Below, one piece after another: positions 22,505-54,880 of a DNA stretch of 64,000 nt. The notes beneath the pieces were generated by a model. That model had not been told where the DNA came from. It did not search any database and worked only from the letters and a program-made list of their open reading frames with translations. The number at the start of each line of letters is the position of its first letter. Position 1 is the stretch's first letter. The DNA is from Mytilus galloprovincialis. Taxonomy: Eukaryota; Mollusca; Bivalvia; Mytilida; Mytilidae. The position numbers were made by a program, and so were the translations under genes. The stretch is taken from positions 39,522,458 to 39,586,457 of the forward strand of contig NC_134842.1 in assembly GCF_965363235.1 (NCBI RefSeq), given 5' to 3'.

Positions 22505-22980
22505 TTAAGGTCTTAAATCATATGACTTCTGTTTACTGAAACATTTGTTCTTCTTTTCGGGGCGCTGATGAGGATTAGATTGCACTCTTAATTTGTTTTC
22601 ACGTCGTACCATTCTAGGACTAAATGATTCATCTACATCATAATGCGATGTTGATTGATTCGAATTCGAACACACTTCTTTCGGAGGCAGACAATATATT
22701 TTATCATTGCTTTTCATTACTTTCCATGCTGTTTTATGATAAGTATCATAATAGACATTCTCAGATGAAATTATCACTTCATTGTTCAGTTTTGCAAATT
22801 CATCACCAGTCGTGCACATTGATGTTTTGATTCGTCGCACGGAATGAAATGGGAAAACATACAAACTATAAATCTATCATGGTCAAAAGTTCTGACAAAA
22901 TGTTTCGTCAATATTTGCAGGAAATTCATAATATTATTTTCCTCATCAATACTGTTACAGGATCTCAAATGATATTATGT
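22505..22980 (-). pseudogene. Deaminase-like family copy C: 5'-truncated and frameshifted
   Basis: Homologous to the copies at 37100-38025 and 46098-46945. From the 5' side (22968 downward) it reads FLQILTKHFVRTF, then IVCMFSHFIPCDESKHQC (the PC-x6-C zinc half-site), then ARLV. A frame change near 22810 follows, and it continues EVIISSENVYYDTYHKTAWK, IYCLPP and a basic tail to a stop at 22505. The part with the HGE half-site is missing, so it cannot form a complete active site as it stands. No nearby fragment upstream supplies it. The function call (zinc-dependent deaminase fold) is inferred from the shared motif layout described for the other copies. Confidence 0.6.
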
Positions 22981-24055
22981 TTACATTATCTGCAAGTTTG
23001 TACAATGGTTGTAAAAAAAAGTATTTAAAAAAAAAGCAATTGGACCTATTATAATTTCAAAATTATTTGATAGTAACAAGATTCAATATCATTGACAACG
23101 GGACAACATGAGTTAGATGTAACGAATTATTGGTTACAGTTTGTCATTTTACATCGAACAAACAATCAACTATGCATCTATTTATATATATTTGACAAAA
23201 TGTCTGTAAAAAGCAACACATTACATATAAATTAATAATAGCATAGATTATTGAGTTTAAAGGTTATGTGATTACGCCAAAAAATAGGGACGTGATATGG
23301 AGATTAAAAAAGACATCAAGAAGCCATACAAATTCATAATAACAAATCACCGCTACTCGTTCAAGATATGAACGACACCCTAGACGCTGTGTTCAAAACG
23401 TTTAGACTTGTGTGTACGATTTTAGCCTTATCCATCAATTATTAAGAAAGAAACAGATGGATTTGTCGATGTTTTTATATCAAATATACTGGAATAGGAT
23501 CCCAGTTAGGACAACCAGTCCGGTACCCACGAATGCAGTTCTTAAAAAAATATGTAACTTTTGTTATACATTGTGTAGTGTTATTATTTCACTAGTTCTG
23601 TAACTGAATGTAGATTTATTTGAAATGGGAGGCTTTCTAGTTTGAATTTCTGTAAAAATTTTGATTGATTTAAATGTAATCTGGCGGCAGTACATATAGT
23701 AAATTGCCTAAATTCTAGCCTTTATTCTTCCCCGGAAGTAGACAGACCGACCCTGTTGTCAATACAAACAAAATTTTGCAAAGGAATGCTGGTCATGAGG
23801 CACTGAGATTGTTCTAAGACACTTCAAAATGAATGCCTAACATGAACCAGAAGTCCCAAGGTGGCTATAAAATAAAATAAAATAATTTATTAAACAAGAC
23901 CCTATGTATTTACTATTATTTTCACAATGCGTTCCAATTGGGGCCAATAATTGGGTCCCCCTTCTTACTCATTCTGCATGTGCAATGAACTCATAATACG
24001 TTTTTCCATAGACTTTTATTTCGACAATTCCTTTAAGATCAAAATTCTAATTTAT
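22981..24055. other. No gene seen
   Basis: AT-rich sequence. A 63-residue frame at 23412-23603 has no domain or splice context and is not supported. Confidence 0.5.
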
Positions 24056-24059
24056 TCCT

Positions 24060-24525
24060 ACCTCATAATGTGAACTGGAGCTAACATCTTAGTAAAGCTT
24101 ATAGTCCTTTCTTTATTTATGTATCAATGTCATTTTGATTAATTTTTACTGTTACATGTTCTGACAAAAATCGAACTCGGACTTCTTATGAACTGAGTTT
24201 TACTGTATGTTAGTATATTCTACATTGGCCAGAGGTATATGGGGAGGGTTGGGATCTCACAAAACATGTTTTACCCGACGACTTTTATTCCCTTGTTCCA
24301 ATTTAGAAACCTTTGACCTTTGTCAGTTTTAAATAAATAGTGTGTGACGTCTATTTTCGGTGAACTAGTACACATTTATGTCTAGGGGTTAGTTGATGCT
24401 GCCTCTTTTTTACGCTATGTTGACGACCCTTCAGAGGCCTTGTATCATGTTTTGGTCCTCGGCCGGCTTGATGTCTCTTTTACACATTGTCCTTTTCCAT
24501 TCTTGATTTTATTTGAAGGCGAGTG
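24060..24525 (+). mobile_element. Solo tail of reverse-transcriptase family R1 (diverged)
   Basis: The same order as the tail in copy A (800-1848): GAACTGGAGCT, CTACATTGGCCAGAGGTATA, GGGGAGGGTTGGGATCTCA, CATGTTTTACCC, ending ATGTCTCTTTTACACATTGTCC then CCATTCTTGATTTT. No coding part is attached. Confidence 0.75.
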
Positions 24526-24529
24526 ATGA

Positions 24530-25710
24530 ATAAGAAATGAGAAATGCTTTCCCTGTAGATGCACAAGTATCGCTTCTGGTAGAGTGTTTGCAATTCACTC
24601 AGGTTGTTTTGATTATTCTTATGTGTCTTCTCAATCCATTTATTTGAACTGAACATAAGTCATGTCAGTTAACTTCTGTCTCAATTTCGACCTATGCAAC
24701 ATTGTTTATCACAGTAAGAGTAACTCATTGCATAGTTTGTAAAAATGGTGTTGTAAATTCAAGTTCCTTTTTATTTGCTTACCTAATTCCTTTTGGGGAT
24801 GAAAAACATTGTACTAGTACAATATAAAATAAGAAGATGTGGTCGATAGCAGAAAGAAAAAATATCTTCACTAGAGACCAAAACGAGGTTTGGCTTAAAC
24901 GAGTGTATTGGATAGTTTTTTACTTCTTTGAAATTGGATTTTCTCCTTTTTGTTTTTCATTGTTGGTTTACCTCTTGTTTTAATTTCCATTAACTGAAGC
25001 AATGCATAAAAGTGTTTTATTGACAGAACTATCACCATAAAAGCGTATAAAAGCGTTGTGCTAAACGCTTCTGAATATTGACACATTTGATATTGACCTG
25101 TTCTGAAGATTCACTTATTTTGATGTGACGTAATGTTGTAACTTAAAGTGTATTTTTTTATTCAACCAGTCTACCTCTAAAACAATTCCAACAACAACAA
25201 GGAAAAAACCCCAACAAAATCCCGATTATTGGTAATGCCTTGTATTTATGATCCAACGGATTAATTGTCCCATATAAAATAATATATCAGGGCACATACT
25301 TTTAATTAGATATCTTTTGATAAAAGATTTTGAATAATATCAAGATTGTTTTAATCATACTGCTGTTCCCCTTTTTTCCCATTATGCATCCTAGGCTTTC
25401 AAATATTCGGATTTGAACGTTCATCATACATCTCAATCCATAAAAGCGCTGAGGATGCATTATATCAATAATACGTTGTGTATACTTCTGCAGGTGAGCA
25501 GTCCCCGGTGTTTCATCAGCTAAATTGTCAGTAGTTTGTTACTGACATGGTTTATAACAAACCTTTCTCAAGCGTTTCTGATGAAGGTACATTAAAAAAA
25601 GCGCGTTTGACACATGAACATCTATAACGTGTTGTTCCATCTTTTCACGTGACTTTCAGTAGTCAGTCATTGGCTTTAGATAAATTCAGCTACTTTGTGT
25701 TTGCCCTTTT
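24530..25710. other. No supported gene
   Basis: Contains a short R2-like border (AAGAAGATGTGG at about 24831) and a degenerate dispersed repeat at about 25495-25680. The 63-residue reverse frame at 25086-24895 has no supporting context. Confidence 0.45.
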
Positions 25711-25714
25711 TGGT

Positions 25715-25885
25715 TTTATAGCTCTTTGGCTAGGTCGTATTTGGCACAACATTTTGGAATTTTGGGTCCTCAATGCTCTTCAACTTTGTACTCGTTTGGC
25801 TTTATAACTATTTTGATCTGAGCATCACTGATTAGTAATGGGTATCTGGCGTATCAAATTATCAGCCTAGTACCTTTGATGACTA
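25715..25885 (+). repeat. Dispersed repeat family R4 (~350-bp unit), partial copy
   Basis: Ordered motifs: GTATTTGGCACAACATTTTG, GAATTTTGGGTCCTCAATGC, TCTTCAACTTTGTACTCGTT, ATAACTATTTTGATCTGAGC, ATCACTGATTAGT, ATTATCAGCCTAGTACCTTT. Fuller copies lie at 38968-39335 and 44206-44905. Confidence 0.75.
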
Positions 25886-26559
25886 TTTTACTGTTTCGGT
25901 TTTTGTACATCCTTTGTTTTCAAATATTTGGTTTTTATCTTTCCCGTTAGAAGTAAATCAAGAACTCAGGACCCTAGATATTGAAAACGTGTTGTTTTTT
26001 ATTTTTTGTTTTCAATTTATTGAGCATTATAATTACATTTGAAAGGAGTTTATAAGATTGAAATACATTTTGTATTATCCAGCATGTCAAATTGGATAAA
26101 AAACCTGTTCGATCATTGCAAAACTATTTTGATTTAACAACAAAAGCTTAAACCATCTTCATTTCATCTTGGTAAAAGTACTCTTTTTTTTACCGCAGCT
26201 CTTGAGGGGTGCTCCGTACACATACATTTAAAAACTAAGTGTGCTATCTTATATACAATTTTACCAAACAACTAAAAATATATAACCATAGTTTGTGTCT
26301 TTTATAACTTTCATGTATCATTTTATATAATATCTCAGCTATGTTTATATTGTTTAAATGAAAAATTTGATTTTTTTTTTGTTATTCAAAAAGAATTATT
26401 ATTTGATATAATAAGAACATATCATTATGACTTTTACATTTTGTGCAGACTTCAAGCACTAGACGCATGCGACAGTTCTGTTGAAGAACTTCTGTTTTAT
26501 TTTTTATTTTTGTAAAAAATTGATCCAAGATGTATTTAAATAGACCAGATAATTACACA
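25886..26559. other. No gene seen
   Basis: AT-rich sequence with no coding frame or repeat that I can support. Confidence 0.45.
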
Positions 26560-29500
26560 TGTGTTAATTGTGCTTCCTCTATAATGCTTTACTTTTCTTC
26601 GAAAGCAAGTGCTTACACTTTGATTTTCATAAATCATTAATCTCAAAATCAAAAATATTCATTCATGCCAAATACATACCTTCTCAGAAAAGGATGGTGT
26701 CTAATGAGTATCTTTCTACAGTTGTTACTGGTTTCTCGAAAATACTACTTTAACAACAGGTTAAATTTTCTGTTAAAGAAAAACGACAAAGAGGATGTTA
26801 ATATTTTCTATCTAAACCAGATCTAGTAACAATTTTAAAAGAACATAGCTGTAAAAAATTAAAATTAAAAAAAAGGAAGACCAGAACGTAGCATCATCTG
26901 GTTCAAATATCCCTTTTTTGTGTCAGATTATAGCTTTCTTAAATTCTGAAAATGTATGATTTATATAACTTCTGCTTGATATAAATGAAAATCACCTGAT
27001 CTGTCTGATATTTATATTGCTTGCACATTTATTAAAAGTTAAGCAAAAGGACATTTTTTTATCAATAGCATATGACTAAATTCAAAATATTCATGCATCT
27101 AAATTAGCTGTTTTATTCATTTTCTCTCAATAATCTTAGATAACTAGAATCTATTCAAATACATACCCTATCAAATAAAGGTGTTGTCCAATGTTTACTA
27201 AAAAAAAATGAATAATGCACTGATGGATTTCCGAAAATACTATTTTTAACAGCAGCTAAAATTTTCTATTAGAATAACCTATCAAGGACGTAGATGTTTC
27301 CTTTCAAAACCTGATCTCGTAAGACGCTATTTTTAACAACAGTTAATTCTCTTCATTTGAAGTGACATGAAACCGAAACTGAAATTACATAAAACTATTT
27401 TTTCCTCCGTATCTTTAAAGATATAAAACTACAGCTGTATAGATTTTAAATTGGAACAAAAAAATTATAGACACTGTATGTTTAATGTAACCTGTGATCC
27501 GAAATATACATGTAGTACGAAAAAAACAACCAATAGTCAATTCATCTTTCAATTTGAATCAACATTTGAAGTTCAGATTGATTCAATAAAAGAGGTCGAA
27601 GATACACAAGAGGGATTACAACATAAGTCGTAGAAAAACCAAACAATAAAATCGCATAACTTTACTATTAGCTGTACTATTCATTTTCTCTAAATAATCT
27701 TAGATTTGGAAAACTAGAATCTATTCAAATACATATCTTATCAAATAAAGGTGTTGTTCAATGTATACTTTTTAAAAACGAATAATGCACGTAATGGAAT
27801 TCCGAAAATAGTATTTTTAACAACAGCTAAAATTTTCTACAAGAAAAACCCATCACGGATGTTGATGTTTTCTTTCAAACCTGATCTCGAAAGACGCTAT
27901 TTTTAACAACAGCTACGTTTTTTATTGGAATTGACATAAAACCTAAACTGAAATTACATAAAACTATTTTTTCCGGCATATCTATAATTTAAGAAATAAA
28001 ACTTCGCAGTTGTATAGATTTCAAATTGGAATTCAAAAATCATAGACACTGTATCTTTAATAAAAAAAGTATGAAAAAAAATCATCATTTGTCAATTCGT
28101 CTTACAATTTGAATCACCTTTTTGTGAAGCTTTAACTGATGCAAGAAAAAAGGTCGAAGATACACATCAGGGGGACTACAACATAAGTCGTCGAAAAACC
28201 AAACAATGAAATCGCATAACAGAAAAACAGCAGTCTACAATATTTTATATAGAAAACTTTACACTAAGCCAGAAAAAACAGTGTTAATCTAGGTAGCTTT
28301 GGAAGAGCGAGTAAATGCTGATGATGCATAAAAGTCAAGCAAATTATGAAAGGGTGACTTAATTTTTTCATGCCGTTTACATAATTTACTTCATATGTTA
28401 TGTTCGTGTAATTTCATCATATACGTCCTTGATAGTTTCATAAAAACTGCTTCAAAAGAGCTTTGAGGACGAACGGTCACCATCACAAATCAATTAAACG
28501 ATACGACACGATGTGCTTCAATTTCCCAGCGACATCTTTTTCAATTTCAGTTCTAAAGATACTAGAGAAGTCATCTTATTTGTAATTTGACCAATTGTAT
28601 CCTATTCTAGATCTTGATATTTTTACTGAGAATAGCGTACGATGTATGCATAGCAGGAGACATTTACCACATCGACGCATCAAATCTCGGTCCTTCTGAA
28701 GGTCATGTGATTTCATCAGATTTTGTGTGTTTCTTTATTTTCTTATTTGTTTTGTGAGATTTTAAAATCAAACAATAAGTATTAATGGCTATAATAATCG
28801 ATATTTAAAAAACACATAAAATTGATTTCTATGCCATATATCCCTTTCTTCCGTATGCTACTCAAAAGTGTTTTTCCCTTTGCGTGACAATCACAATACC
28901 AATAATAAAAATTAAAACTATAAGTTTTGTTCTTTTTTGTGTGTGAAAAATTAATAATGATAGAAGAAGGGGACAATAGGGTGTCCGTTAACATATTAAC
29001 AACACCTCGATGTTGGCAAAAACAGTTAACAATAAATTCAAAAATGCTGATAACAGTTAACACAGTGGGTTGAAAACAGTTTACAGTTTTAATTTATCGC
29101 AGATACTAGTAACAGTTAACCACACCCTGAAAAAAACCAAAACAGGTTCACATAAAAAGGTATTGCCTCCCCCCCTCATAATGTTCCCAGAACGAAGGTG
29201 ATACAATTACTCATTGTTCTTTGCTAGCACTCATATTATTCAAATATAGAAATTTGATACTGATCATAACCAATAATCAATAACTTTATAGACTTTCATT
29301 TATTATTGAATTATTTGCTCCCATTTTTGCTTCATGCTCGTTTTTTAACTGTAAAGTTGAAGGAGATTTAAATATTGTTACAATCGTGTAGATAACTATT
29401 GTTTCGTGTTAAAAGTCATTTTCTTATCTTGAGTTCACGAGGCTAACTATGTCAATCAAATATGTTATTTATTTAGACACTAAATTAAATGTAAATCCTT

Positions 29501-31529
29501 TCTTCGAACTCTATAATTTGTTTCTTACAAACTTGTTTTTTAAAGGTTTAAATTGAACAAGGGAAACACATAAGGAAACCAGTTTGAAATCTACTTTGAA
29601 CATGTTGCTTGCATTATTATTTAAGTTATTCAAGGAACAATTCGTGAAATGTGAAGTACAATGATCAAATATTCGATTACTAGCTTATAATGAAATTCAA
29701 AATAGTTGACAGTATTCATTTTTTTTTTCTGAATAACCTTAGATATAGAAAACAAAATTTATTCAAATACACACCTTACCAAATAAAGCTGTTGACTTAT
29801 GAATATCTTTCATAAACTGATAATGGTTATCCCAAAAAATACTGTTTTTAATAACAGCTTAAATTGACATTTGAAAAGAAAAAACAATATAAGTATGCAA
29901 ATGATTTTGTCTGTGTTTCTTTTTTTAAAATCTAAACCAATCTCTATAGGATGCTATTTTAACAACAACTAAACTTTCCTTTTGATGTGTAAATAATGCC
30001 AGAAATTTGTATTCATTGTATGAACGTTTACACACTTATTTAATGGATAATTTATCAAATTGTAAGTTCAATGGAAATCATTTGATTAATAGCTTATAAT
30101 TTTATTAAACAGTCATGTTTGTAAACTATTTACAGTGTTCATTTTTCCCAATAATTTTGATATATACTTTTTTGAATACAGGTAATGTCGTATGAATTTC
30201 TTCAAAAACTAATAATGATTTTCCAAAAAATTCTATTTTTACCCGGAGCTAAAATTTCTATTTAGAATATTAAGCACGCTAATGTTCTTTATCTGTTTCT
30301 TTTAGTTTTTATCAAAACCGGATTTTATAAGGTGTATTTTGACAACAGCTACATTTTCATTTGATGTGACAACAATATAAGATCAAAGATTTTTTTTTCA
30401 AAGAACAATGGAAACACATATTTTATCTTTTAACTGTCAAATAGTTATTTTCATAATCTAAACGGCATGTACAAATCACACTTCTGGATTGTAAAGTGAC
30501 AAAATACAAGTACGCGATGAATAAATAACTTTTAACTAAAGATATTATATTGGATAAATGATATTCAAATCTATTTAGAATATTCAATCATACGAAGACA
30601 CATAGAAATGGATACTTATTTACAGAAAAGTGCATTTAATGTTCATTTAATGAGTATTTGTCATTATTTCTATAGTGTTAATTGTGACAAGTTAAAACTT
30701 CTTTAACGGATATCAAGTAGATACCAGCAGGATTGATGATTCCCCATTCGTCAATGATTTTGGTATTGTGCTCGGTCATTTCATTCAATACTTCTGTCAT
30801 TACACTAAATTCGTCCAGAAAGGTTTATTTGATATTTCAGTCTTTATATTTGTTTTTATTGCAAATAATCATAGATCATAACACTGAATGTATTAATGTT
30901 ATGCAAATCTTAAAAAGAATTCAATATAAAGGAACGGTTCAAGGGTTGTCCTTCGACATATGCAAATAACTCTTACTTAAAGGATGTCGTGATTAAAATT
31001 TATCATTAAAAGTCAAAGCCAACGTTTATGTTAACTTTCATTCATAATAAAAACTACAACATAAGTTTAAATACGTTGTAGTTCAATACGGCCGTCTTTC
31101 TTAGAATTAAATTACACGAACAAAGAAACAGACAAACATCTCAAACATTAAATTGAAGTAAAAAAAATGTTAAATTAAGTTGAAAGAGAAATAATAGACA
31201 AAGCCATGACAAAAATACCTACAACCAAAGGAAAATGTCCTGGAAAAGTGCAATCAAATTCAGAATTTCACAAGAACAATAAACAAATAAGAATAAGAAT
31301 AGGTGAAAGAAAGGATCCGACAGAAAATATTGCAGAAACATAGATGTGTTTCTAAATTATTTGGAATATTCATTGTTTTCTCAATGACTTATATTTGGGA
31401 AAAAATAAAATATATTCACTTACCGTCTCAAATACAAGCGTTGTCTAAGGATTTAAAAAAAAACTGATAATGGTTTTCCAAAAGTACTATTTATAACAAC
31501 AGCTTAAATTGCCATTTAAAAAGAATAAT

Positions 31530-31672
31530 AAGCATATTCATAATATAAGGGATAAGACAATCCTTAGTATTTCGAAATAATTTTGTAAACAGGAAATTTA
31601 TAAATAATGACCATACAATTGATATTCATGTCAACACCAAGTGCTGACTACTGGGCTGGTGATAACCTTTTT
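31530..31672 (-). repeat. R4 repeat fragment inside the duplicated array
   Basis: Plus-strand words AAGGGATAAGACAATCCTTA, GACCATACAATTGATATTCA, TGTCAACACCAAGTGCTGAC and TACTGGGCTGGTGATA match the reverse of the R4 unit at 44206-44553 and the unit at 38968-39335. Confidence 0.75.
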
Positions 31673-32019
31673 ACAAACATTTTATAAAACTATGAAACAG
31701 TAATTTGTAAAAACTTTGTATACAAGTATGTGTCGTGGTTAAGTCGTTACACATTTAGGAGTTCTTCTTTAAACAACTACTTTATCTTAAAGGTGATCTT
31801 AACACCGGGTTTGAACTACAAGAATATTCCTATTTGTCTTTTGGATTAAATTCGCCTGTTTAACGTATTCTTAATCAAATAGAAAATAAAGTCATTAGGG
31901 GTAAGATTTGTTAAGAAAAGGAAGTACACAAAGTGATAAAGACATTCCTATCTAGAACCATACCGTTTAAATTGACATTGTGAATATCAACGGTGCATTT
32001 TCCCACTATATATAAAAAA

Positions 32020-32115
32020 GAAGATGTGGTATGATTGTCAATGAGACAAATCTCCACAAGAGAACAAAATGACGCAGAAATTAACTGTTGACAGTCACCA
32101 TCAATAATAAGTAGA
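32020..32115 (-). repeat. R2 repeat end, reverse orientation
   Basis: AAAAAGAAGATGTGGTATGA, TTGTCAATGAGACAAATCTC and GAAATTAACTGTTGACAGTC match the reverse complement of the R2 3' end at 12020-12118. Confidence 0.8.
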
Positions 32116-35512: not shown

Positions 35513-37099
35513 TATTTACACAAAACTTTGTCTCGAACGTACTAATCGTATGATAACATTGGTTGGAAACCATAGAAAATAATAAATTGACAATATTTGT
35601 GATTCAACAGGTAAAACTGTGTATTTTAGTTTTAGAAATTTTCTAAAAATTTATGACGTAGAACAAAGATAAAGTAGCAGCTGATTGATCTTAAATATCA
35701 TAAGAACAAAAAAACATACGCACTTGACGCTAGCGTTTTGAGACACCGACACATCGTATTGGTCAACAATTAAAGCTCTATTGTAAGGATAACACACAAA
35801 CCTAAGGGAAATGTTTGAACTCTAAAGGTGAGAGACTAGAAAAGTATAAACGTTCCACGTCTTTTTATATGCATTCATCACTCGTATGTGATGCAAATGT
35901 GGTCAAAATATCAGAAGTTAACAGTCTGGGATTACAAAAAACATCGGTAATATTAACCATACAGATTAACGCTTAAGATGGTATATAAAGGTGAAAACTC
36001 TGATAACATATATTAATAATATCGTTCAGATTACCTATGATGATAGTGTCATCAGGCATCTTGGTGTTATATAAATGGGTAAATTATATGAACTTAATAA
36101 TGGTTGGTAACATATCTATACTATTTAGCATGTTAAATGAGAAGACCTCATTATGTCTCTTCTCTTCCTTCCACAATAAATAAATCCTGAAGTTTTTTTT
36201 ATGTCCCATAAGAATTATGCATAGTTGCATTTGTAATCCTTTTTTTGACTATTCTGATTGGGAGGAAAACAAAAATAAAGTCGTCCGAATGGTTCCGTCA
36301 TCGGACAGACTTATAAGTTATAAAAAAGTTTTCCGTTAAGGGCGACTAAAATTACAAATTATTTTCATTGTTACTTTTATGTTTTCTATAACAAATTCGA
36401 ATATGCATGGTATTTATAGGACACAAATATATGATGAATAATCAATTGGCGAAGAAAGAAAAGCGACATTTACTATCAAAGGCAGAATTGTTTACATACT
36501 TTTAGCCACGCTCTCAATGTCCGAGATTTTTCGGGTGAATTCTACTAAATATTTATCTGACTGTATATGACTTTATTAGATATAAAAGTAGTTTTGTTGG
36601 AGGCAATGCTTTATCACGTACACGTTGTGTGTAGTAAAGAAGGACAACAATTCATAATACACGATGTTTTTTTAACGAACAATTTCAAAAGAAAATGTAG
36701 TTCATTATTGAAATATGAGGAAGTCATTTTTAGAATACAGTCACTGCGTATTCGTGACTATATACATCATAATAGTTGTCATTACACCTGCGAATTATAC
36801 CTTATCAACAATTACCTAATATCGGGCATATGAAGTATTATAAATTGGCCTTCAATTTCAATATGTATGCTGTTATGTTTATAATGAATACATTTATAAA
36901 TTTTTCTATTTTAATTTTGTAATCAAATGTAACAACTATAAATATACCAGATGTAAGATATATTACGAAACTGTTTTGAAAATCCCCACTCTAAACATTT
37001 TTTTTTAATTGGTGTTTTGTAAAATTAATAACCGAGAGAAATATCTTTAACTTTTAGTAAGTTTGTATTCCTGTTTTATTTGAACGACTATGGAAACAG
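35513..37099. other. No supported gene
   Basis: AT-rich. An 88-residue frame at 36567-36833 has no known domain. It lies just upstream of the deaminase-like exon and could be an earlier exon, but nothing in the sequence ties the two together. Confidence 0.4.
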
Positions 37100-38025
37100 G
37101 TATAAATAGACAAAGGATATTCAAACTTCCGTATGGTCACTTTGATGCAAAATCAATTTCGATCTTTCCATACCTTCTTACAGGACTTGGATTGCGTATT
37201 ATGAAAAAACTAAATAGTCACTGACGGAACAAAGAGAGCAGTTTATTATTTCTGCTATAGTGTCATACAAGGAAATAGCATGTAGGGATACAGAAGTAAT
37301 AAGAGAAGCCAATGAAGAATGGGAATGTCTCAATACGTATTCATTAAGGTTTGATCATTATTCATTTTCCTTTAATAGATTAGTGTTCATATTGAACAGT
37401 TCCAACCCATCCATACACGGAGAGGCAAGACTTTTAGACCCAGACGGTAAAACCCGTAGACAAATATTCGACCGTCCATACCAGAAACAAATTGGCAGGG
37501 AGTCATCAAACAATTTTCTAGCTGTAATGAAAGAACAGTTTTTCGAGCAATTTGAAGAAAATGAAAAATACGTATTAATTATGTTTTCCCACTATATTCC
37601 TTGCACACTACCTGGACACATGTGTTCTGAACTACTCAGCGAATATGCTACACGATACGATGAACAAATACTTATTGGATACACAAATGTTTACCAGAAT
37701 ACAGATAAAAATTTTGCTTTGAGATTGATGAACAAAAGTGACAATATTCACTGTTTAAAAGAAAAAAGACTTAAAGCTGAATTGTCGTAAATATGCAAAA
37801 GAAACAAGACACGAAGCTGATGAAGAATCAGACACGTTAGAAACCTATATATTTGACGACGAGGACTATCCCGAATTCAAAAGAATGGTTAAACGTTTTA
37901 GAAACCGTTCCTCAAAATTAAAAAATCGGAATAGAGAAACGAAAAAGAGAATCTCTAAATATTTTGACAGGAGAGATTTCTCTGGAGACAAGGATGACGA
38001 CATTGATGAAAATATAATTTTGTAA
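37100..38025 (+). pseudogene. Deaminase-like family copy A (most complete; two frameshifts)
   Basis: An exon starts after AAACAG (acceptor at 37098-37099) in the same phase as copy B. In order: GHFDAKSISIFPYLL and MKKLNS; a frame change near 37225; EQFIISAIVSYKEI; the strand FNRLVFILNSSNPS; IHGEARLLD (HGE half-site, codons at about 37416-37424); a variable segment; YVLIMFSHYIPCTLPGHMC (PC-x6-C half-site, about 37569-37625); SELLSEYA; and QILIGYTNVY. A second frame change in an A-rich run near 37760 then leads into a long Lys/Arg and Asp/Glu-rich tail (ETYIFDDEDYPEF, KRISKYFDRRDF) to a stop at 38025. Alternating hydrophobic strands with H-x-E before P-C-x(n)-C are the core of the cytidine-deaminase fold, in which His and two Cys bind zinc and Glu shuttles protons. 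AID/APOBEC-like clades are known in molluscs. The substrate is unknown. With both frameshifts it is a pseudogene, unless they are sequencing errors. Confidence 0.6.
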
Positions 38026-38965: not shown

Positions 38966-38967
38966 TG

Positions 38968-42625: not shown

Positions 42626-42629
42626 TGAT

Positions 42630-44905: not shown

Positions 44906-46097
44906 AGGTTAACAGTAGAAATAGAAGTTTATTTAAGACACATAGTTAATGTATCGTGCTATTTACAATGGAGTCTTATATCTAATATAATTATTAATTA
45001 TTAATTATCAAAAGTTGCTAAGTCAGGGCTATGAATCAATCAAATTTATGTCATCACTCAAGAAATTTTATGCTTGCCATCATGAGCTGATTGGCCATTA
45101 TGACAAAAGTGTACCAGAAATCATATCTGATATTCTTCCTCAATCAAAATAACCTTCCATCATTACCGAACTGAACAAAGAAATAACACGACGGGTGCCG
45201 TATACGGTGCAGGAAATGCTTAACCTTCCGCAGCACACTCCCGGTTTTAAGTGGAGTTCATGTTGTTTCTTATTTTTTATTTATAACTGTTGATGTAAAT
45301 GTCTTTTTGTTTTGTGAGTCTTTTTTACTCCTTGGTTTTGATGGTTATTGTCTTATATGCCAATGGAATGGAGATCATGGATACTTTTCTTATATATATA
45401 TTTCATGTTTCGTATGGAATTAGGGTTCAGTAGCAGATTTGGTAGTCTCTTTATCAATTCATTTAGAACATCTGAAGAACATTTAGAGCGGTATATATGA
45501 TGTTTGCACTGGACAATTGGTGAAGACCGTGTGTCGACATCTTGATGTCGTTTGATTGTTGTAGATATGTCTAGTCACAGTTTTAAAATTTGTATATCAA
45601 CCGTAATGAATTTGATTCTTCAACAACATAAAAACTTAATAAATTACAAATGTTTTCTTGCTTTAGATTTTTATTAACAATTGAAACCTGCTCTTTGTAT
45701 TTCTGAGTTTAGACGTTGTAATTATTCATTAATCGTACATTATATTTTACCAAAATATCCATTAATAACATTTACAGAAGGAATTTTATTATATTTCAAC
45801 AACGTTAATTATGAAATGTTAATAATATATTCATCATATCATATACGTTATTTTATAATCATACCAAAAAGTAATTTATTATTATTTAAAAAAAACCATT
45901 TGAATTATTCACTTATTATACATTTAATGGAATGATTCACCAAAGTTCATTATTGGTAATACAATATTATTAAACATATACTTTAATTATACAGAATATT
46001 AATATAACATCTTTTACTCAACCAGGACATGGTATCTAATGTTTCAACTCGTACATATAGGGTTGATTTTTATTTTGTTAATCTTTTCTAAACCGAT
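44906..46097. other. No supported gene; R5 fragment at 45165-45270
   Basis: 45165-45270 carries AACACGACGGGTGCCGTATA, CGGTGCAGGAAATGCTTAAC and GGAGTTCATGTTGTTTC-like words of a dispersed repeat. The 84-residue frame at 45681-45935 is Ile/Tyr-rich AT sequence without a domain. Confidence 0.45.
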
Positions 46098-46945
46098 TCA
46101 TAAACGATATTTTTTTAAACATCGAGCATTCTTCCTTGACCCGTTATGATCCATTGAATCAAGGAAATAATTGATAACAGATTTAGATGATTTACCAAAT
46201 TTTTTACGTCCTTGTCCTTTAATCGTAATCATGCGAATTCCATTAATAAATTCATGTTCATGTCTGTAATATGCAGGCGGTACACAAAAAACATTATTGT
46301 TAGCTTTCATAATTTTACGAGCCAATTTTAAGTTAGTGCTCCTATAAGCACGATCATAGGAAATTATAATTTGCTTTCGATGAATTTCTGAATACTTCTG
46401 TATAAGTTCTGCACACTTGTGTCCTGGGATTGTACACGGAATATAATGTGAAAACATGCATATAATATATTGTTCTTTGTCTCCAAATTCATCGACAAAT
46501 TGATTCTCCATTTGTAGAAAAATGTTTGGATTGTTTTCATGCCCAAAATTGTTGTGATTGCATATTTCCTGACGCAGTTGTGAATCAGAGTCCAATAATC
46601 TGGCTTCTCCGTGGACACTTGTATTGGCAACTGGAAGATTTATCAACAGAACAAATCTATTAAATAATATGTAATTATTTTGAATATTGTCATTACATAG
46701 ATCAGGAAAACGTAACTGTTCCCTTGCCTTTGTAATTACGTTTATGTTCCAATTTTCCATTTCCCTTTAAGAAACGAAGGCTGCACATACAAACTGGTTA
46801 GGCATATTAGGAAACAATTGCATTGCTTCTCGCCCAAAATCTCCTAAAAGCTTTGGCAAATATGCTTTTGTTTTTATATCGAATCTTTCAATATTCGTCC
46901 CTATTTCGCCAAAATAATTGATCAGGCCCGTATACTGATTGCTGG
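46098..46945 (-). pseudogene. Deaminase-like family copy B (uninterrupted catalytic core, one upstream stop)
   Basis: On the minus strand the exon begins after a T-rich tract and ACATAAG (acceptor at 46947-46946), in the same phase as copy A. In order: LINYFGEIGTNIERFD, KAYLPKLLGDFGREAMQLF, NQFVCAAFVS, a TAA (46769-46767) where copies A and D have TAC (Tyr), then an uninterrupted 220-codon frame from ATG 46760. Within that frame are FNRFVLLINLPVA, SVHGEARLLD (His50, Glu52), YIICMFSHYIPCTIPGHKC (Cys109, Cys116), KQIIISYDRAYRST and VFCVPP, then a basic tail ending KKYRL. This is the motif order of a zinc-dependent deaminase core (H-x-E ... P-C-x6-C). If translation starts at Met 46760 the core would still be intact, though it lacks the conserved N-terminal part. 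The superfamily is inferred from motifs; the substrate is unknown. Confidence 0.6.
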
Positions 46946-47026
46946 CTTATGTAAAAAAACAAAAGTGAGTCTTATTTTATATGAACAATGATGGTTAAAA
47001 TTTGTTGTGTAATAACAATAAGATTG

Positions 47027-47915
47027 TTCTAGTATGGAACGCCAAAACTGTCTTGTTATGACCATTTTTCATTATATGATGTTCATTTACCTTTATATGA
47101 TGTGCACTTGTCATTATATGATGCGCACTTACCTTTATATGATGTGCACTTGGAATTATATGATGTGCAAACACCTTTATATGACGTGCAAATATGCTTA
47201 TATTATGTGCAAGTATCTTTATATGATGTCCAAAAATCTTTATATGATGTCCAAACATCTTTGTACGATGTGCAACTACACTTATATGATGTGCATACAT
47301 ACTTATATGATGTGCATACATGCTTATATGATTTGCATACATACTTATATGATGTACTAATGTACTTATACGATGTGCAAATGTACATATATGATGTGCA
47401 AATGTACTTATATGATGTGCAAATGTACTTATATGATGTGCAAATGTCCTTATATGATGTGCAAATATCCTTATACGATGTGCATTTTCCCTTATATTAT
47501 GTGCAAACATCTTGATATGATGTGGTTGTGTCATTATATTATGTGCTTGTAATCTTATATCATGTGGTTCGGTTAACTTCATTATATTATGTCGAAACGT
47601 CATTATATGATGTGCTTTCATCGTCGTTATGGTCAATGAACATGATTACGATTAGAATGATTACTGTCTACGTCATAACTGATTCCGATCTGCTTCTGCA
47701 GAATTAATATAAACCCGGATCAAATCTGTAGCTATCGTTTGGAAAATGGTTGAGATGTAAAAAATAAAAAAAAAACCTTGACATGTTTGTTCCTCGATTT
47801 AAGATGAAAAAACCACACCAGATATTATTGGAAAATTGTGAATTGCAAAGTTTAGACAATGGGTCTACAATAATGAATATACCAGGTCTGCAATAACGGG
47901 CATACACTTAACTAA
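47027..47915. repeat. Left arm of a 6-kb inverted repeat (partner 52120-52988)
   Basis: The outer end TATGGAACGCCAAAACTGTC, the 21-bp minisatellite, GATTACTGTCTACGTCATAA, CTGATTCCGATCTGCTTCTG, ACATGTTTGTTCCTCGATTT and TTCATTATTGTAGACCCAT-type words all reappear in reverse complement and reverse order at 52120-52988. The arms are about 0.87-0.89 kb each and 4.2 kb apart. They could be long TIRs of a DNA transposon. No target-site duplication or transposase was found. Confidence 0.85.
47072..47620. repeat. Minisatellite, about 26 units of 21 bp
   Basis: The commonest unit is TTATATGATGTGCAAATGTAC, with most variation in the last seven bases. Because 21 is a multiple of three and the unit lacks stops in several frames, long frames stay open on both strands (HHI heptads on minus, LYDV heptads on plus). 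I regard these as artefacts of the repeat rather than proteins. Confidence 0.95.
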
Positions 47916-48985
47916 AGTTATTAAATTAAAGAAATGATTCTTTTATGCCATGCTCTATGCTCATTGTACTAGGCTTATATTTGGCAATATCTTTATATCT
48001 TGCGTTAGCGTTTTTTTTTTTTTAAAGAACTAAGTACATGAATTTCCAGTATGTTCATTGTTTTGTAAAGTTTGCTTTGCTGATCATTTTAGCTGTGGAA
48101 GTTTGTCTTTATATATCACTTTTCTGAAGAAAGACACAAAAATGGGTAATGACCAATATAATGGACCGATCATTTGCCACCCCCAGAAAGAGGGGATAGG
48201 AAGAAATTAAGGGAGCCTTTAATTTTGATTTTTTTTTTTAAATAAAATGATGGTATTCAATTGTTTATATTTATAGATTTGACGAGGTATAATGTTTTTG
48301 CGATGTGTTCGTTGTCCGTAAATACTTTGTTACCAGACGAAAACTTTTTAGAAATAAGGGGCCAAAACGGCACTTAAAACAAGCAATTCTTAGGGTTCTT
48401 TGATATGTTGAATCTAGCAATATATTTAGATTTCGGATATTGGACAATATAACAGGTAATGTGTCACAAACCTATGATGCGTAAGATATTGAATAATGAA
48501 TAAATTAAAATTCAGACCTGTATAAAGCTGGAGTGGTTATGTCCATACTTGCCTCAACTGTTTAGGGTTCGACCCTCATCGTAAAAATTAATAGTTTTGA
48601 CTCGAAAGACGTCAATTTTACGCATAGCTCCGCTAGCCTCGTCTGTTAAAATCTAAATCCTTATTTTTCCAACAAATAATTTCTTCCAGCAGAGTATGTT
48701 TAATCTGAAGCTAGTAATATTAAATGAAGGTGTGATAAATATCAATGAGACCATAACCGGCATATCCAAATTAAATTCCAAGTCGCAAACAACTTCCACA
48801 CTTGAAGTTTTAGATCCACTATTGACGTGCTATTTCAAACTTATATAATGCAAACGGAATTTAATGCGCTTTTTTGGTTATTACGAACAAATGTATTGAA
48901 AAAGGTGTGTGTAATTGTTCTCTGGTGGTTTTTTTAGGGGGGGGGGGGGGAGTGTAAAGTATAATAATTATAATTTACTTATTTT
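47916..48985. other. No gene seen
   Basis: AT-rich interior of the inverted-repeat structure, with a G14 run at 48937-48950 next to an R2 repeat. Confidence 0.45.
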
Positions 48986-48989
48986 TAAA

Positions 48990-49215
48990 TCTGTTTTTAT
49001 AATATAAAAAAAGAAGATGTGATATGTTTGCCAATGAGACAACTCTCCACAAGAGACCAAATTGACACAGAAATTAACTACTAGGTAACCGTAAGTCCCT
49101 CAACAATGAGCAAAGCCCATACCGCATAGTCAGTATAAAAGGCCCCATGATGACAATGTAAAACAATTCAAACGAGAAAACTATTTTGCTAAGACAAGGT
49201 TTCTCGATAAATAAG
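48990..49215 (-). repeat. R2 repeat, reverse orientation
   Basis: AAAAAAGAAGATGTGATATG, TGCCAATGAGACAACTCTCC, GAAATTAACTACTAGGTAAC, AATGAGCAAAGCCCATACCG, CATAGTCAGTATAAAAGGCC and AATTCAAACGAGAAAAC match the reverse complement of 50930-51110. Confidence 0.85.
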
Positions 49216-50540
49216 TATCAAGATAATATGCAATAAAACAATAAAACTCATAAGAGCCAAAGTGGGCCAAACTTATACTTAGAAAAATTAAAAACACAAC
49301 TCTCTATCTGCCAGGGACCACCAGGCCTCAGTAAACAAAAAATAAATACAGTGTGTTTATGTTCATTCAGACACAAATCTAATTAAATTCCATTTTCTGT
49401 TTAAAGACCATTGGGATTCTCGGTTTTGTCGGATTTATATACACCTTCAAAAATGTGAAGGCCGAATTTCATTGGCTGATGTAATATTTACTAGAACAAA
49501 CTGTATCAAAGGACTGAAGTACTGAACATCAGATGACCGCAAGTTCTCGTCCGGGATGGTCAGAAGCACTTGTCTTAAAGAAAATCACATCTCAATACCT
49601 GAAAGTGAGGTTAACTTACGGAGATATATTATTTTTTAGACAAGTTCGTGCTTGGATGATGAATAAACAACAGGGAATTCAACCTCACCGTATTCACAAT
49701 TATATTGTAGTGATACAAATCAGTATACTCTGGTTTGTTGTTATATATTAAATTAATATTTGTATATAACAGTTACATGTATACATAATTTTGATCCAAA
49801 TGCTATTCTACTATTCTAATAATAGTGCAGTGCAAGTGCATAGTGAAAACTCTTCTGAAATAATTCGGATTTTCTAATAGTTTGGATTTATGTAGGCATT
49901 CATTTTCCCAGCATAAACGTTCTGGAGATATTATTTCCGCATGCGATAACACAATTGTTCTGTACGTGTGCATATATATTACTTACAAATGTATAAATAC
50001 ATTTCTAACGACACAACATTTTCATATTATTATATGTTCTAAAAAAAATGTTTTTATGAGTATTACTTGAAGCGACAAATAATGTTATTTTGCACTCGAT
50101 TATGTCTGCGTTTTTATACGATCAATTACATGTACCAGTCAAAATCGAAAGTCAAATCTCTGTTGCGACAATACATCGGAATGCCCTCACGGTCAACGTG
50201 ATGTAAACATGAAGTGTGGGCATGAGGACGTGTACTTCCTTGTTCCAGGACAAACATATTTTTAGACTTTAATGAAAAAACTCTTTTTTTAAAATAATAT
50301 AGTTTTTTTCTTAATTTCATTATTGTTTTATTTTTTCTCTCATTTTCAATGGAAACAATTATTTTGATTCCCCCCTGAAAAAGATAAAATATCTTTCAAG
50401 AAACTTGGAATCAAACATTTACAAAAAAAAACATGCCCCCATTTCCCCTGCAATCACCCAAAAAAAATCAATGGTCAGTATGTTAGCCCTGTTTACGCAG
50501 TTGTATATCTGAACGGCTTTCCTTTTATTTTACGGGTAAC
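49216..50540. other. No supported gene
   Basis: AT-rich. A 72-residue frame at 49533-49751 (starting MTASSRPGWSEALVL) reads plausibly at its start but has no domain or splice context. A partial relative of the G/C foldback lies at about 50360-50450. Confidence 0.4.
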
Positions 50541-50830
50541 CGTCTAGTGGCGGTGCTTTCATGGTAGCATGTTAGTTAGCCTCTAGTGTTGCTGGTCGTA
50601 GGTTCGAATTCCGGCCGGTTCAAAACCAAAGAATTTAAAATTGGTATTTGCTGCTTCCCTGCTAAATCAAGGAGTAAAATCAAAGACTTGTTCGGCTCGG
50701 AATCAGAATAATCTGTCCGGGTAACACCGTAAGGTGAAATGGATTTCTGCGAAGTAGCATGTTAAAAATCCGACTCAGGGTGCCGGTCTAATACAAAACA
50801 GGGTTAATATTCATTTCACATTAATATGTT
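50541..50830 (+). mobile_element. tRNA-derived SINE
   Basis: A tRNA-like head with TTTCATGGTAGCATGTTAG (degenerate A-box) and GGTTCGAATTCC (B-box, 50601-50612), followed by a body with GTATTTGCTGCTTCCC, GGTGAAATGGATTTCTGCGA and CTAATACAAAACAGGGTTAA. It resembles a SINE type I recall in molluscs. It sits directly before an R2 repeat. Confidence 0.75.
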
Positions 50831-50844
50831 CTCGTACGAATATG

Positions 50845-51110
50845 CACCTGTCCCAAGTCAGGAGCCTGTAATTCAGTGGTCGTCTGTTGATGTGTTACAT
50901 ACCGGTAATTTCGTTCATTTTTTGTACATAAATTATGCCGTTAGTTTTCTCGTTTGAATTGTTTAACATTTGTCATTTCGGGGCCTTTTATAGCTGATTA
51001 TGCGGTATGGGCTTTGCTCATTGTTGAAGGCCGTACGGGGACCTATAGTTGTTAATTTCTGTGTCATTTGGTGTCTTGTCGAGAGTGGTATCATACCACA
51101 CAGTCTTTTA
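50845..51110 (+). repeat. R2 repeat, near-complete copy
   Basis: CCTGTCCCAAGTCAGGAGCC, ATTCAGTGGTCGTCTGTTGA, GCCGTTAGTTTTCTCGTTTG, TTTATAGCTGATTATGCGG, ATTGTTGAAGGCCGTACGGG and GAGAGTGGTATCATACCACA. The clearest copy in the window. Confidence 0.85.
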
Positions 51111-51272
51111 TTTATCAATTTTCCGCTGGACGTCAAGCATACATTCATAATCATGTAAGTGTGCAATAAATGCATGAATAAAAATAAAAAGATGCAAGCA
51201 AATGTCATGCAACGAGTTGAAGGTCATCCCATATCTCCTTTCATTCCCTTTTTTTTGGGGGGGGGGGGGGGG

Positions 51273-51510
51273 GGCTCGGTTTCCGAGGGGTCCAAGTGTC
51301 TAGCATGTCAACACTTAAATGTAGGTTGTGAGTTCGAATCCCACACGTGGCAGGTAAGCTCGACTCCAATCACAATTGAATAGAATTATTAGTTTTTCGT
51401 ACCGAAAGTCGGTGTTTCTTTCCGGGGACTTCGGCTTCCTCCATCAATATAAACTCACCACCACGAATTAGCATGATAGTGTTAAAAGTGGCGTTAAAAA
51501 GCAATCAATC
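51273..51510 (+). mobile_element. tRNA-derived SINE next to a G18 run
   Basis: A G18 run (51257-51274) leads into a tRNA-like head with GTGTCTAGCATG (A-box-like) and AGTTCGAATCC (B-box, 51331-51341), then CACACGTGGCAGGTAAGCTC. A body with GTACCGAAAGTCGGTGTTTC, GGGGACTTCGGCTTCCTCCA and CCACCACGAATTAGCATGAT follows. The tail is short AATCAATCAACA-type repeats, typical of SINE 3' ends. Confidence 0.75.
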
Positions 51511-51639
51511 AACAAATTAATCAACCAATCATCCATACCGGTATAATTCTATATGCAAGAGAGGATAATATTGTAGCTATCGTTATAAAATATTTTTGAA
51601 ATTGACTTTGAGTTCATTGGTGTCTTTTGAAATGAATAG

Positions 51640-51790
51640 AAATAGGAAGATATGATATGAGTGCCAATGAGACAACTCTACATCTAAGTCATAATGTGTA
51701 AAAAGTAAACAATTATAGGTTTAACTACGGCCTTCAAGACGGAGCTTTTGCTTAAACCGAACAGCAAGCTATAAACAAGAGCCACACAGT
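51640..51790. repeat. Dispersed repeat family R3, copy
   Basis: AGGAAGATATGATATGAGTG, CCAATGAGACAACTCTACAT, AAGTAAACAATTATAGGTTT, ACGGCCTTCAAGACGGAGC and CCGAACAGCAAGCTATAAAC. Related copies are at 59275-59475 and 61505-61640. Confidence 0.8.
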
Positions 51791-51894
51791 TTGTTTTATT
51801 TTATTTTCGCCGCTGCCGGGAAATACTTCAACTAGTTCCTGCATTAATTGATCTTTATCTTCCGCCGAAATGTTTGAAACTTTAATTTTTGTTA

Positions 51895-52050
51895 AAATGC
51901 ACTTTGTTTAGGGGCCAGCTGAAGAACGCCTCCGGGTGCGAGAATTCTCGTTGCATTGAAGACCTGTTGGTGACCTTCTGCTGTTGTCTGCTCTATGGTC
52001 GGGTTGTTGTCTCTTTGGCACATTCCCCATTTCCATTCTCAATTTTACTG
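51895..52050 (+). mobile_element. Solo tail end of R1
   Basis: TTTAGGGGCCAGCTGAAGAA, CCTCCGGGTGCGAGAATTCT, GAAGACCTGTTGGTGACCTT, TGTTGTCTCTTTGGCACATT and CCCCATTTCCATTCTCAATT. It has few differences from the other R1 tail ends. Confidence 0.9.
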
Positions 52051-52119
52051 TCTCACTTTATCTTAAAAATGCACTTTCGCTTAAAAGATTAAAGATTTAT
52101 TTCTAAAACGTAATAAGTT

Positions 52120-52988
52120 AACTGTATGCTCATTATTGTAGATCCCGTATATTCATTATTGTAGACCCATCGATAAAAATTCATAATTTGACAATTTTCC
52201 ATCAATATTTGGTGTGCTTTTTTTCATCTTGAAAATCGAGGAACAAACATGTCAAGGTTTTCCTCTTTTTAAATAACCTCCAATTTGATCCGGGTTTATA
52301 TCAATTCTGCAGAAGCAGATCGGAATCAGTTATGACGTAGACAGTAATCATTCTAATCGTAATCATGTTCATTGACCATAACGACGATGAAAGCACATCA
52401 TATAATGACGTTTCGACATCATATAATGAAGTTAACCGAATCACATGATATAAGATTACAAGCACATAATATAATGACACAACCACATCATATAAAGATG
52501 TTTGCACATTATATAAGGGAAAATGCACATCGTATAAGGATATTTGCACATCATATAAGGACAATTGCACATCATATAAGTACATTTGCACATCATATAA
52601 GTACATTTGCACATCATATATGTACATTTGCACATCGTATAAGTACATTAGCACATCATATAAGTATGTATGCACATCATATAAGCATGTATGCACATCA
52701 TATAAGTATGTATGCACATCATATAAGTGTAGTTGCACATCATATAAAGATGTTTGGACATCATATAAAGATGTTTGGACATCATATAAAGATACTTGCA
52801 CATAATATAAGCATATTTGCACGTCATATAAAGGTGTTTGCACATCATATAAGTCCAAGTGCACATCATATAAAGGTAAGTGCGCATCATATAATGACAA
52901 GTGCACATCATATAAAGTTAAATGTACATCATATAATGAAAAATGGTCATAACAAGACAGTTTTGGCGTTCCATATTCTAGAGCGATT
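52120..52988. repeat. Right arm of the 6-kb inverted repeat (partner 47027-47915)
   Basis: Reads as the reverse complement of the left arm: GAGGAACAAACATGTCAAGG, CTGCAGAAGCAGATCGGAAT, CAGTTATGACGTAGACAGTA, the minisatellite, then GACAGTTTTGGCGTTCCATA. Small indels near 47760 and 52270 separate the arms. Confidence 0.85.
52385..52945. repeat. Minisatellite, about 26 units of 21 bp, inverted relative to 47072-47620
   Basis: Unit GTACATTTGCACATCATATAA or close variants. Unit order and variants run in register with the left arm (for example the block with ATGTATGCACATC units is in the corresponding place), which shows that the arms share one origin rather than two independent expansions. Confidence 0.95.
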
Positions 52989-53520
52989 AAAAATGGTTAT
53001 CTGTTGTTGTTTAAAAATACAAATAAGGTCAGGACTGATAAGTCTAAAAAACAAGTAAAATGACAATAATAAGATATAAAAAAACCAATACAGATAAATA
53101 AGTCAAGCCCATTTTCAATAAACTAAAAACAAATGACCTCATATCTATTTGTATTCTTTTGACAATAAAAAAATCTAAATTCACGGCACATTTCTTTGGG
53201 CCATTTATGATTTACTTTCAAATACCGATATCCATGACTGATACAGAAAAGAAAAATCAAATCCCAATTCATGTTAAAAGTGTGGATTAAATATCAGTGT
53301 TTGTAAAATAAGGCACAGGCTTAAATCTTTGCAAACTGTTTGTTTCCCAATGACAATTTTACTCCAGAACATTTTTTCTCTAAAAATTACTGGATTCAGC
53401 TAGGACTTTGTCAGCAAGTTTTTTTTCTCTGGTTGCTTTAACTAGAAAAATAATTAAGACGATTTTGTATGATTGCCATTTCAAGAACTATCCACCTGAC
53501 TAAAATAAGGTAAATTAATA
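52989..53520. other. No gene seen
   Basis: AT-rich. The reverse 121-residue frame at 53803-53438 spans a tandem repeat and reverse-transcriptase sequence on the wrong strand and is rejected. Confidence 0.5.
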
Positions 53521-53690
53521 GACGCGAACGGGCTACCGCGGGGTTGTCGACCGTCGAAGCCGGCAAACTATACCCTCGGTAAATTTTTTTTGTGGGTGAA
53601 ATTTTCATCGAGGTGTCGCACGTTAGACGCGGACGGACTACAGCGGGTTTCTCGACCGTCAAAGCCGGCAAACTATACCCTCGGTAAATT
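53521..53690. repeat. GC-rich tandem repeat, unit 105 bp, about 1.6 copies
   Basis: GACGCG-ACGG-CTAC-GCGG, TCGACCGTCAAAGCCGGCAA and ACTATACCCTCGGTAAATT recur 105 bases apart (53521 and 53626). It is markedly more GC-rich than its surroundings and ends where the reverse-transcriptase fragment begins. Confidence 0.85.
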
Positions 53691-53695
53691 CCATA

Positions 53696-54538
53696 ATATT
53701 TGGATGATATATTGGCTCTCAACAAGGACGACGTCAGTATGTATACTAAAGAAATGTATCCTGTTGAACTTACTTTAAAAAAGCTAATACTAACAATGAC
53801 CACTGCCCTTTCCTCGATTTTGATATTGATATCATTATCGGGAAGCTTAATACAAAAATTTATGACAAAAGAGATGATTTTTCATTTCCTATCAATAATT
53901 ATCCATTTTTAGATGATGACGTTCCCTTGTCACCACCAACTAATGGTGTTTATATATCTCAACTTGTACGTTTCGCTCGTGTATGTAACAAAGTATTAGA
54001 TTTTAGCGAGAGAAATTTATGTATTACTGAAAAATTATTAAACCCGGGTTTTTGATATCACACACTAGTAAAAACATTTTCAAATTTAATCATCGGTATA
54101 AGGAAATAATTCGTAAATATAACTCCATATGCAGACATCTTATACGTTTAGGTATTCTTCATCAAATCTTTTATCACGGTAATATTTTTTACAAAGCACA
54201 AAAAATGTCAGTATTCACCTCAAAAGTTTACAAAACCTTTAAACAGATTTATTAAGAAGGGACATAGTTACGATACTGTTGTCAGGTCATTTAAGATGCA
54301 TATATTTGCTTTACTATTGATTCACTTATATGTTTTTTTGCATCGGAACTAAACACATTTATTAAAAAAACAGTTGTTGGCATGACACGGGTTATGTTTT
54401 TCTCATATATTTTATAGTATGATACTAAACCCCTAACGAGACGGACTGTGCCTGATATTAATATGATGAAGACATAATCTTTCAATCAGTTTAATTGAAG
54501 TCTGCAGCTGGCATGTCAGTTAACTGCTAGAAGTCTGT
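53696..54538 (+). mobile_element. Reverse-transcriptase element family R1, copy B (broken)
   Basis: Begins at the palm motif (LDDILALNKDDVSMYTKEMY, where a Y/LxDD core is expected). A frame change near 53775 leads to NNDHCPFLDFDIDI, GKLNTKIYDKRDDFSFP, NGVYISQLVRFARVC and CITEKLLNPGF, then a TGA at 54053-54055 with further damage. The tail with AAACACATTTATTAAAAAAA, GTTGTTGGCATGACACGGGT and TTAATTGAAGTCTGCAGCTG stops abruptly at 54538 against a deaminase-like fossil. Class unresolved; it is broken and not active. Confidence 0.8.
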
Positions 54539-54539
54539 T

Positions 54540-54880
54540 CTCGTCTTGATGAATATATTGAATATTAACATAGTTATCTCTAAAATCGTCACGACATCGA
54601 CGAGGAAAACGTAACTGTGTCCTTGCCTCTGTAATTACGTGTATGTCCCGATTTTCTATTTCCCTGTACGAAACGAAGACAGTGCATACCAACTGGTTAG
54701 GCATGTTAGGAACCAATTTCATTGCGTCTCGGCCAATAATCTCCTTAAAGCTTTGGAAAGTACGCTTTTGTGTGTATATTGATTCTTTAAATATCTAGCG
54801 TCATTGAGCGAAAGTTATTGACCATATCTTGTGCTGAAATTGATTTTGTAGAAAAGTGAGCCTAATTATATGGTCTATAT
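54540..54880 (-). pseudogene. Deaminase-like family copy D: N-terminal fossil only
   Basis: On the minus strand, with stops and a frame change, it reads MVNNFRSM, THKAYFPKL, then IGRDAMKLVPNMPNQ, LVCTVFVSYREIENRDIHV, ITEARTQLRFPRRC and DDFRDNYV, and ends at the junction with the R1 element. It corresponds to the region of copy B upstream of the HGE half-site. It keeps Tyr where copy B has a stop. No zinc-binding part remains, so it is non-functional. Confidence 0.65.

Follow-up and report, generated by a model that had tools for sequence, protein, structure and literature searches.

Deaminases share a common chemistry, in which a histidine and two cysteines hold a zinc ion, the zinc activates a water molecule, a glutamate shuttles protons and the base loses its amino group. 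In the AID/APOBEC proteins the motif is given as H[AVS]E-x24-36-PCxxC in one study (PMC5956068) and as HxEx25-30PCx2-4C in another (PMC11004436), while human APOBEC4 is described as HxEx30PCx6C (PMC4889046) and APOBEC4 as having an intronless coding part (PMC8201067). According to these studies, SNAD4 deaminases are known only from sponges (PMC11004436), LaAIDL of Lingula and SpAIDL of sea urchin are invertebrate deaminases resembling AID/APOBEC, and two uncharacterised Crassostrea proteins are tabulated as similar to the Lingula AID-like proteins (PMC5956068). Here we compare with these systems a 64-kb stretch of Mytilus galloprovincialis contig C5 (C5:39522458-39586457, the window), which carries four copies, A to D, of a protein family marked by HGE and PC-x6-C motifs. 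The window is a slice of a gene cluster of about 1 Mb, whose genes have an intronless coding part and probably encode a divergent protein of the cytidine-deaminase (CDA) fold, structurally nearest to AID/APOBEC, that would serve as nucleic-acid-editing enzymes.

The local amplification put forward in a preliminary description of this DNA is borne out well past the window. The genome (1,384,861,812 bases in 331 contigs) was searched with proteins P0001 and P0009, and all locus counts from this search are lower bounds. P0001 gave at least 41 matches at E ≤ 1, with 39 on C5, one on C12 (E 0.003) and one on C14 (E 0.03), and P0009 gave at least 51 at E ≤ 0.01, every one on C5. Merged, these mark at least 35 loci on C5, of which 33 lie within 39,428,916-40,395,406 (966,490 bp; the core) and two at 37.02 and 41.16 Mb; all four copies of the window were recovered independently in this way. 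The 14 plus-strand core loci all match P0009 at 53% or more in their best row (A-type), and 18 of the 19 minus-strand core loci were matched by P0009 at 28-44%, copy D being missed. This strand rule breaks outside the core, where the plus-strand gene at 37.02 Mb reaches only 35%. Six of the 14 plus loci have a minus-strand locus about 4-10 kb further on (Table 1), and the other eight are unpaired. The cluster might have grown partly as convergent gene pairs were copied (A-type genes on the plus strand, other types on the minus strand), and gene turnover might have produced pseudogenes such as copies A-D.

Thirty loci from the P0001 search were taken into a survey of open reading frames (ORFs), in which two pairs overlap one place. 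Twelve are intact (Table 1), each a single ORF of 260-308 amino acids (aa) from the first Met with both motifs, and being single reading frames they have a coding part without an intron. These intact paralogues are under constraint: in a Nei-Gojobori analysis of 13 hand-picked gene pairs, made with our own script, the ratio of nonsynonymous to synonymous substitution (dN/dS) was 0.22-0.59 across the eight non-identical intact pairs; the four pairs that include L001 or L006, both disrupted, gave 0.50-0.85 and are not counted toward that statement. L021 and L022 (C5:40.364 and 40.374 Mb), 10 kb apart, have identical coding sequences, which points either to a very young gene duplication or to a stretch duplicated in the assembly. 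L008 shares 98.7% identity with P0014 of M. edulis, and the genome therefore probably belongs to the M. edulis complex.

Across a 57-row alignment the H of HGE is present in 57 rows and the E in 56, and P, C and C are each found in 53 of 53 ungapped rows; an E-to-P spacing of 51-61 together with PC-x6-C occurs in 38 of the 46 proteins scored for both motifs. The AlphaFold model of P0004 is confident and shows the CDA order of elements, a β-sheet with flanking helices, and the H-x-E and C residues sit where helices a2 and a3 begin. A helix between strands b4 and b5 is a criterion for AID/APOBEC, and the model has one there (E178-185, H192-200, E205-208). AID/APOBEC structures occupy 49 of the 50 rows of PDB fold matches listed, in each of two listings. 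The deaminase-type fold proposed earlier is thus supported by the confident model, by nearly all listed PDB matches and by the near-invariant H, E, P, C and C, and on the strength of the prediction the family very probably has it. By comparison with the deaminase superfamily, H98, C157 and C164 (P0004 numbering) would hold one zinc and E100 would move the proton, and the zinc-activated water would take the place of a base's amino group; the base would most likely be cytosine, within single-stranded DNA or RNA. Catalytic deamination is likely, and a polynucleotide substrate is favoured somewhat beyond an even chance. An antiviral or anti-retroelement role, in which the enzymes might mutate foreign or mobile nucleic acid, is plausible at a little under even chances. 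This substrate and this role appear the likeliest because the family resembles AID/APOBEC, shows gene birth and death within a cluster and keeps its catalytic residues intact.

Compared with APOBEC3A, APOBEC3B, APOBEC3G and AID, the mussel family is alike in predicted fold, in the order of elements with the b4-b5 helix and in its H-x-E and P-C...C residues, whereas it differs in the E-to-P distance of 51-61, in PC-x6-C, in its extra helices and in the lack of a significant profile match. The AID/APOBEC spacing HxE-x24-36-PC-x2-4-C is not found in it, although APOBEC4 itself has x6, and no AID/APOBEC Pfam model matches it above cut-off. It shares with APOBEC4 the PC-x6-C, the intronless coding part and H, E, C and C aligned in register by hhalign, but the APOBEC4 E-to-P distance is about 30, P0004 scores 15.8 bits on the APOBEC4 profile vs a cut-off of 27.2, and matches to PF18774 and PF18775, models of the APOBEC4 and APOBEC4-like group, fall below cut-off. 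The family-core consensus matched SNAD4 (2.1e-4, 21.8 bits vs a cut-off of 27) and APOBEC4_like (7.1e-3) and nothing else, and a consensus enlarged with the new genes matched SNAD4 (5.1e-4, 20.5 bits) and DUF483 (0.048). When 32 members were scanned at E ≤ 1, matches were to XOO_2897-deam (eight), DUF483 (five), SNAD4 (four) and APOBEC4, APOBEC_N and APOBEC2 (one each), plus unrelated families. These weak matches are suggestive only, because unrelated families (to 0.0024) and a shuffled control (0.023) score comparably. The XOO_2897-type bacterial toxin deaminases (PF14440), whose inspected matches cover PC-x6-C and the helix after it, reach 19.9 bits at best vs a cut-off of 27, and the mussel family consists of host genes on an animal chromosome. 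The earlier suggestion of an AID/APOBEC-superfamily candidate is supported by the predicted fold and the residues, but profiles do not put the family in the classical AID/APOBEC clade.

Other deaminase-like genes in the same genome are informative here. An ORF on C14 (L031; C14:15466798-15469932) with HAE ... SPCSNC scored above the cut-off of eight AID/APOBEC-type Pfam models, serving as a positive control, and was the one place found by a genome search with PF18774, which left the C5 cluster unmatched. It reads as a classical AID/APOBEC-like exon, and the C5 family would therefore be a different branch. L031 is also the better counterpart of LaAIDL and SpAIDL, which unlike the cluster family have a classical HxE-PCxxC site and a pfam08210 match (PMC5956068). 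L032 (C12) and L033 (C14), with ORF lengths of 352 and 406 aa, carry HGE and either FSWYIPC or YSHYIPC; judged by eye, their hydrophobic N-terminus resembles a signal peptide, and their C-terminal part is longer. Against the family profile they score E 9.6e-12 and 2.7e-14, which none of 25 shuffles equalled, and L032 weakly matches SNAD1; L033 has PC-x9-C instead of PC-x6-C. With E-to-P gaps of 37 and 36, the two lie at the limit of the spacing published for AID/APOBEC (24-36, PMC5956068), and this suggests acquisition, as an insert, of the additional a2-b3 segment in the cluster family. Since L032 and L033 combine a signal-peptide-like N-terminus with shorter, nearly canonical spacing, the ancestor of the cluster may have been a secreted deaminase, with loss of the signal and acquisition of helical inserts on the way to the present genes.

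Within the window, HGEARLLD, FSHYIPC and PC-x6-C are found in copy A (ORF 37218-37790, plus strand) and copy B (ORF 46766-46098, minus strand), which are 40% identical over 131 columns (E = 1e-37), so chance is excluded. They differ at 0.49/0.33/0.61 per codon position (168 codons), as would be the pattern for once-coding sequence. The preliminary description gave all four copies one protein layout; this is complete in A and B, where residues H50, E52, C109 and C116 of copy B are present as named, and PC-x6-C is also found in copy C, as PCDESKHQC. Copy C begins downstream of the HGE helix, and copy D is an N-terminal piece with neither motif, 83% identical in DNA to the N-terminal part of B over 213 bp. 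When the window was searched by tblastn with A and B, the only further places at E below 1 were C (22956-22682, in two frames) and D (54659-54567).

Database searches returned 44 related proteins (P0003-P0046), and a precomputed Pfam domain is recorded for none of them. The largest search covered 3,915 candidates and gave 37 proteins at E ≤ 1; the 14 with a source name come from Mytilus coruscus (seven), M. edulis (four), M. galloprovincialis (one), Mercenaria mercenaria (one) and a Candidatus Thiodiazotropha metagenome-assembled genome (one), the last presumably host sequence in a clam-symbiont bin. Relatives in genome-contig and viral-contig scans were not confirmed. Copy A is 83% identical to M. 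galloprovincialis P0009 over 196 aa, copy B 77% to M. coruscus P0004 over 266 aa, and copy C, in two pieces, 83% and 86% to P0016. Alignment A4 has 43 rows, the short pieces P0008, P0020 and P0038 being excluded, and a tree was built from 39 rows after removal of P0033, P0035, P0039 and P0046 (under 140 core residues). In it A falls in a seven-row clade (support 100/100), B in another (99/97) and the C-type relatives, including P0016, in a third (97/95), and the subfamilies are common to several Mytilus species. A recent burst limited to the window is ruled out, because A and B lie in separate supported clades common to other Mytilus and C lies near P0016 in the third; only B and D are close duplicates. 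A reading as ordinary old paralogues, favoured at first, was abandoned once the genome search revealed the cluster. The survey of animal AID/APOBEC-like proteins by Krishnan et al. in 2018 reportedly describes, in its abstract, lophotrochozoan members and lineage-specific expansions, and the mussel family may already have been glimpsed there. Among the papers listed in literature searches, titles and abstract openings gave no description of such a cluster in Mytilus, which is not proof of absence.

A number of observations weigh against an active AID/APOBEC-like enzyme family. Copies A-D are all disrupted in this assembly, although single-base breaks could be sequencing error, and P0019 of M. 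coruscus has HGKARLLD, with Lys replacing the catalytic Glu, as a possible inactive paralogue or annotation error. No family protein scanned reached a Pfam cut-off, and hhalign gave no significant match to APOBEC3A, AID, APOBEC4 or L031, being no better than shuffles for APOBEC3A and within shuffles for APOBEC4 (at least 5 of 60 higher). Foldseek gave a best E of 3.2e-3 and none ≤ 1e-3 among the matches listed, and the AlphaFold prediction may have leaned on the HxE/PC motifs. Finally, some other parts of the protein vary more than the active-site loops; thus there is no arms-race sign at the loops, and this slightly lowers the odds of an antiviral or anti-retroelement role and of the mutator defence outlined below.

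Three other explanations bear on these points. The proteins could be divergent secreted, SNAD-like animal deaminases that target an extracellular nucleotide or an invading cell, their cytosolic location being secondary. SNAD4 is the best Pfam match of the consensus, and the secreted-looking L032 and L033, the former with its SNAD1 match, are the only strong profile relatives, but SNAD4 stays below cut-off and the named Mytilus members lack a clear signal peptide, with a low hydropathy of the N-terminal 35 residues (-0.58 to 1.41; up to 1.97-2.05 in some unnamed members), and we regard this account as unlikely. About equally unlikely are catalytically inactive deaminase-fold proteins retained as binders, a role that has been proposed for some APOBECs. 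The unusual spacing of HGE and PC-x6-C and the Glu-less P0019 would fit such binders, as would human APOBEC4, also a PC-x6-C protein, which was without deamination in the assays of PMC4889046; the retention of H, E, C and C in almost all rows while the remaining protein diverges argues the other way. That the ORFs are part of a mobile element scattered by transposition, and not host genes, is very improbable. The window does hold dispersed repeats and a non-LTR (long terminal repeat) retrotransposon, and the family has intronless coding parts and many broken copies, yet of the 37 places that the two protein searches gave, one contig holds 35, with 33 inside 966 kb, the subfamilies are common to species, the intact pairs are constrained and the contig scans confirmed no relatives. 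The reading preferred here remains the cluster of nucleic-acid-editing enzymes, and its fullest form is tentative: a mutator defence of the bivalves' own, in which a secreted ancestor resembling L032/L033 would have become cytosolic, gained helical inserts at the b1-b2 and a2-b3 loops and a zinc loop of the APOBEC4-like PC-x6-C kind, and been amplified, partly as convergent pairs, to a cluster of 1 Mb shaped by gene birth and death, whose polynucleotide deaminases would edit viral or retroelement nucleic acid, in parallel to the primate APOBEC3 expansion.

The remaining elements of the window are included in Table 1. The ORF resembling Tox-ART-HYD1 lies inside a repeat of about 780 bp (21-800 and 59800-60575, 89.5%), and the second copy of the ORF is interrupted by a frame change and a stop. 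In the retrotransposon an ORF lying upstream matches GDSL/SGNH below threshold, and the second ORF is in several pieces. The inverted pair holds a 21-bp minisatellite that yields long repetitive ORFs on both strands.

Table 1 Features of the window (window positions) and of the C5 cluster (Mb on C5)
Feature	Position	Strand	Remarks
Copy A	37090..38025	+	Full-length A-type member; ATG 37090, frame changes near 37217 and near 37780, stop at 38025; genome match C5:39559547-39560473
HGEARLLD, copy A	37416..37439	+	Read off sequence
PC-x6-C (PCTLPGHMC), copy A	37599..37625	+	Read off sequence
Copy B	46098..46907	-	Full-length B-type member; one in-frame TAA (46769-46767); ATG missing where intact relatives begin
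HGEARLLD, copy B	46590..46613	-	Read off sequence
PC-x6-C (PCTIPGHKC), copy B	46413..46439	-	Read off sequence
Copy C	22511..22956	-	C-type remnant without HGE part; two frames, change near 22804
Copy D	54567..54804	-	Broken N-terminal fragment, B-type member
Intact loci in core (ten)			L002, L003, L008, L009, L015, L018, L019, L020, L021, L022
Intact loci outside core			L014, L017
Plus/minus pairs	39.447/39.458, 39.559/39.568, 39.622/39.627 Mb	+/-	39.559/39.568: copies A, B
Plus/minus pairs	40.012/40.021, 40.092/40.102, 40.125/40.135 Mb	+/-	
ORF with weak Tox-ART-HYD1 (ADP-ribosyltransferase) match	222-626 and 59997-60402	+	E 7.7e-5, 23.7 bits vs 25
Non-LTR retrotransposon	14149-20387	+	Reverse transcriptase RVT_1, 135.6 bits
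Inverted 885-bp pair	47033-47913 and 52116-52975		92% identical

The family is invisible to routine annotation, because Pfam cut-offs are unreached and its named database matches are labelled unnamed, hypothetical or uncharacterised. If active, it would amount to a large and tight cluster of deaminase-fold genes in an invertebrate that filters seawater rich in viruses, and, with intact genes available, would offer a direct test of whether innate immunity based on mutation underwent an expansion of its own outside the vertebrates. The cluster could belong to an unstudied defence system of shellfish.

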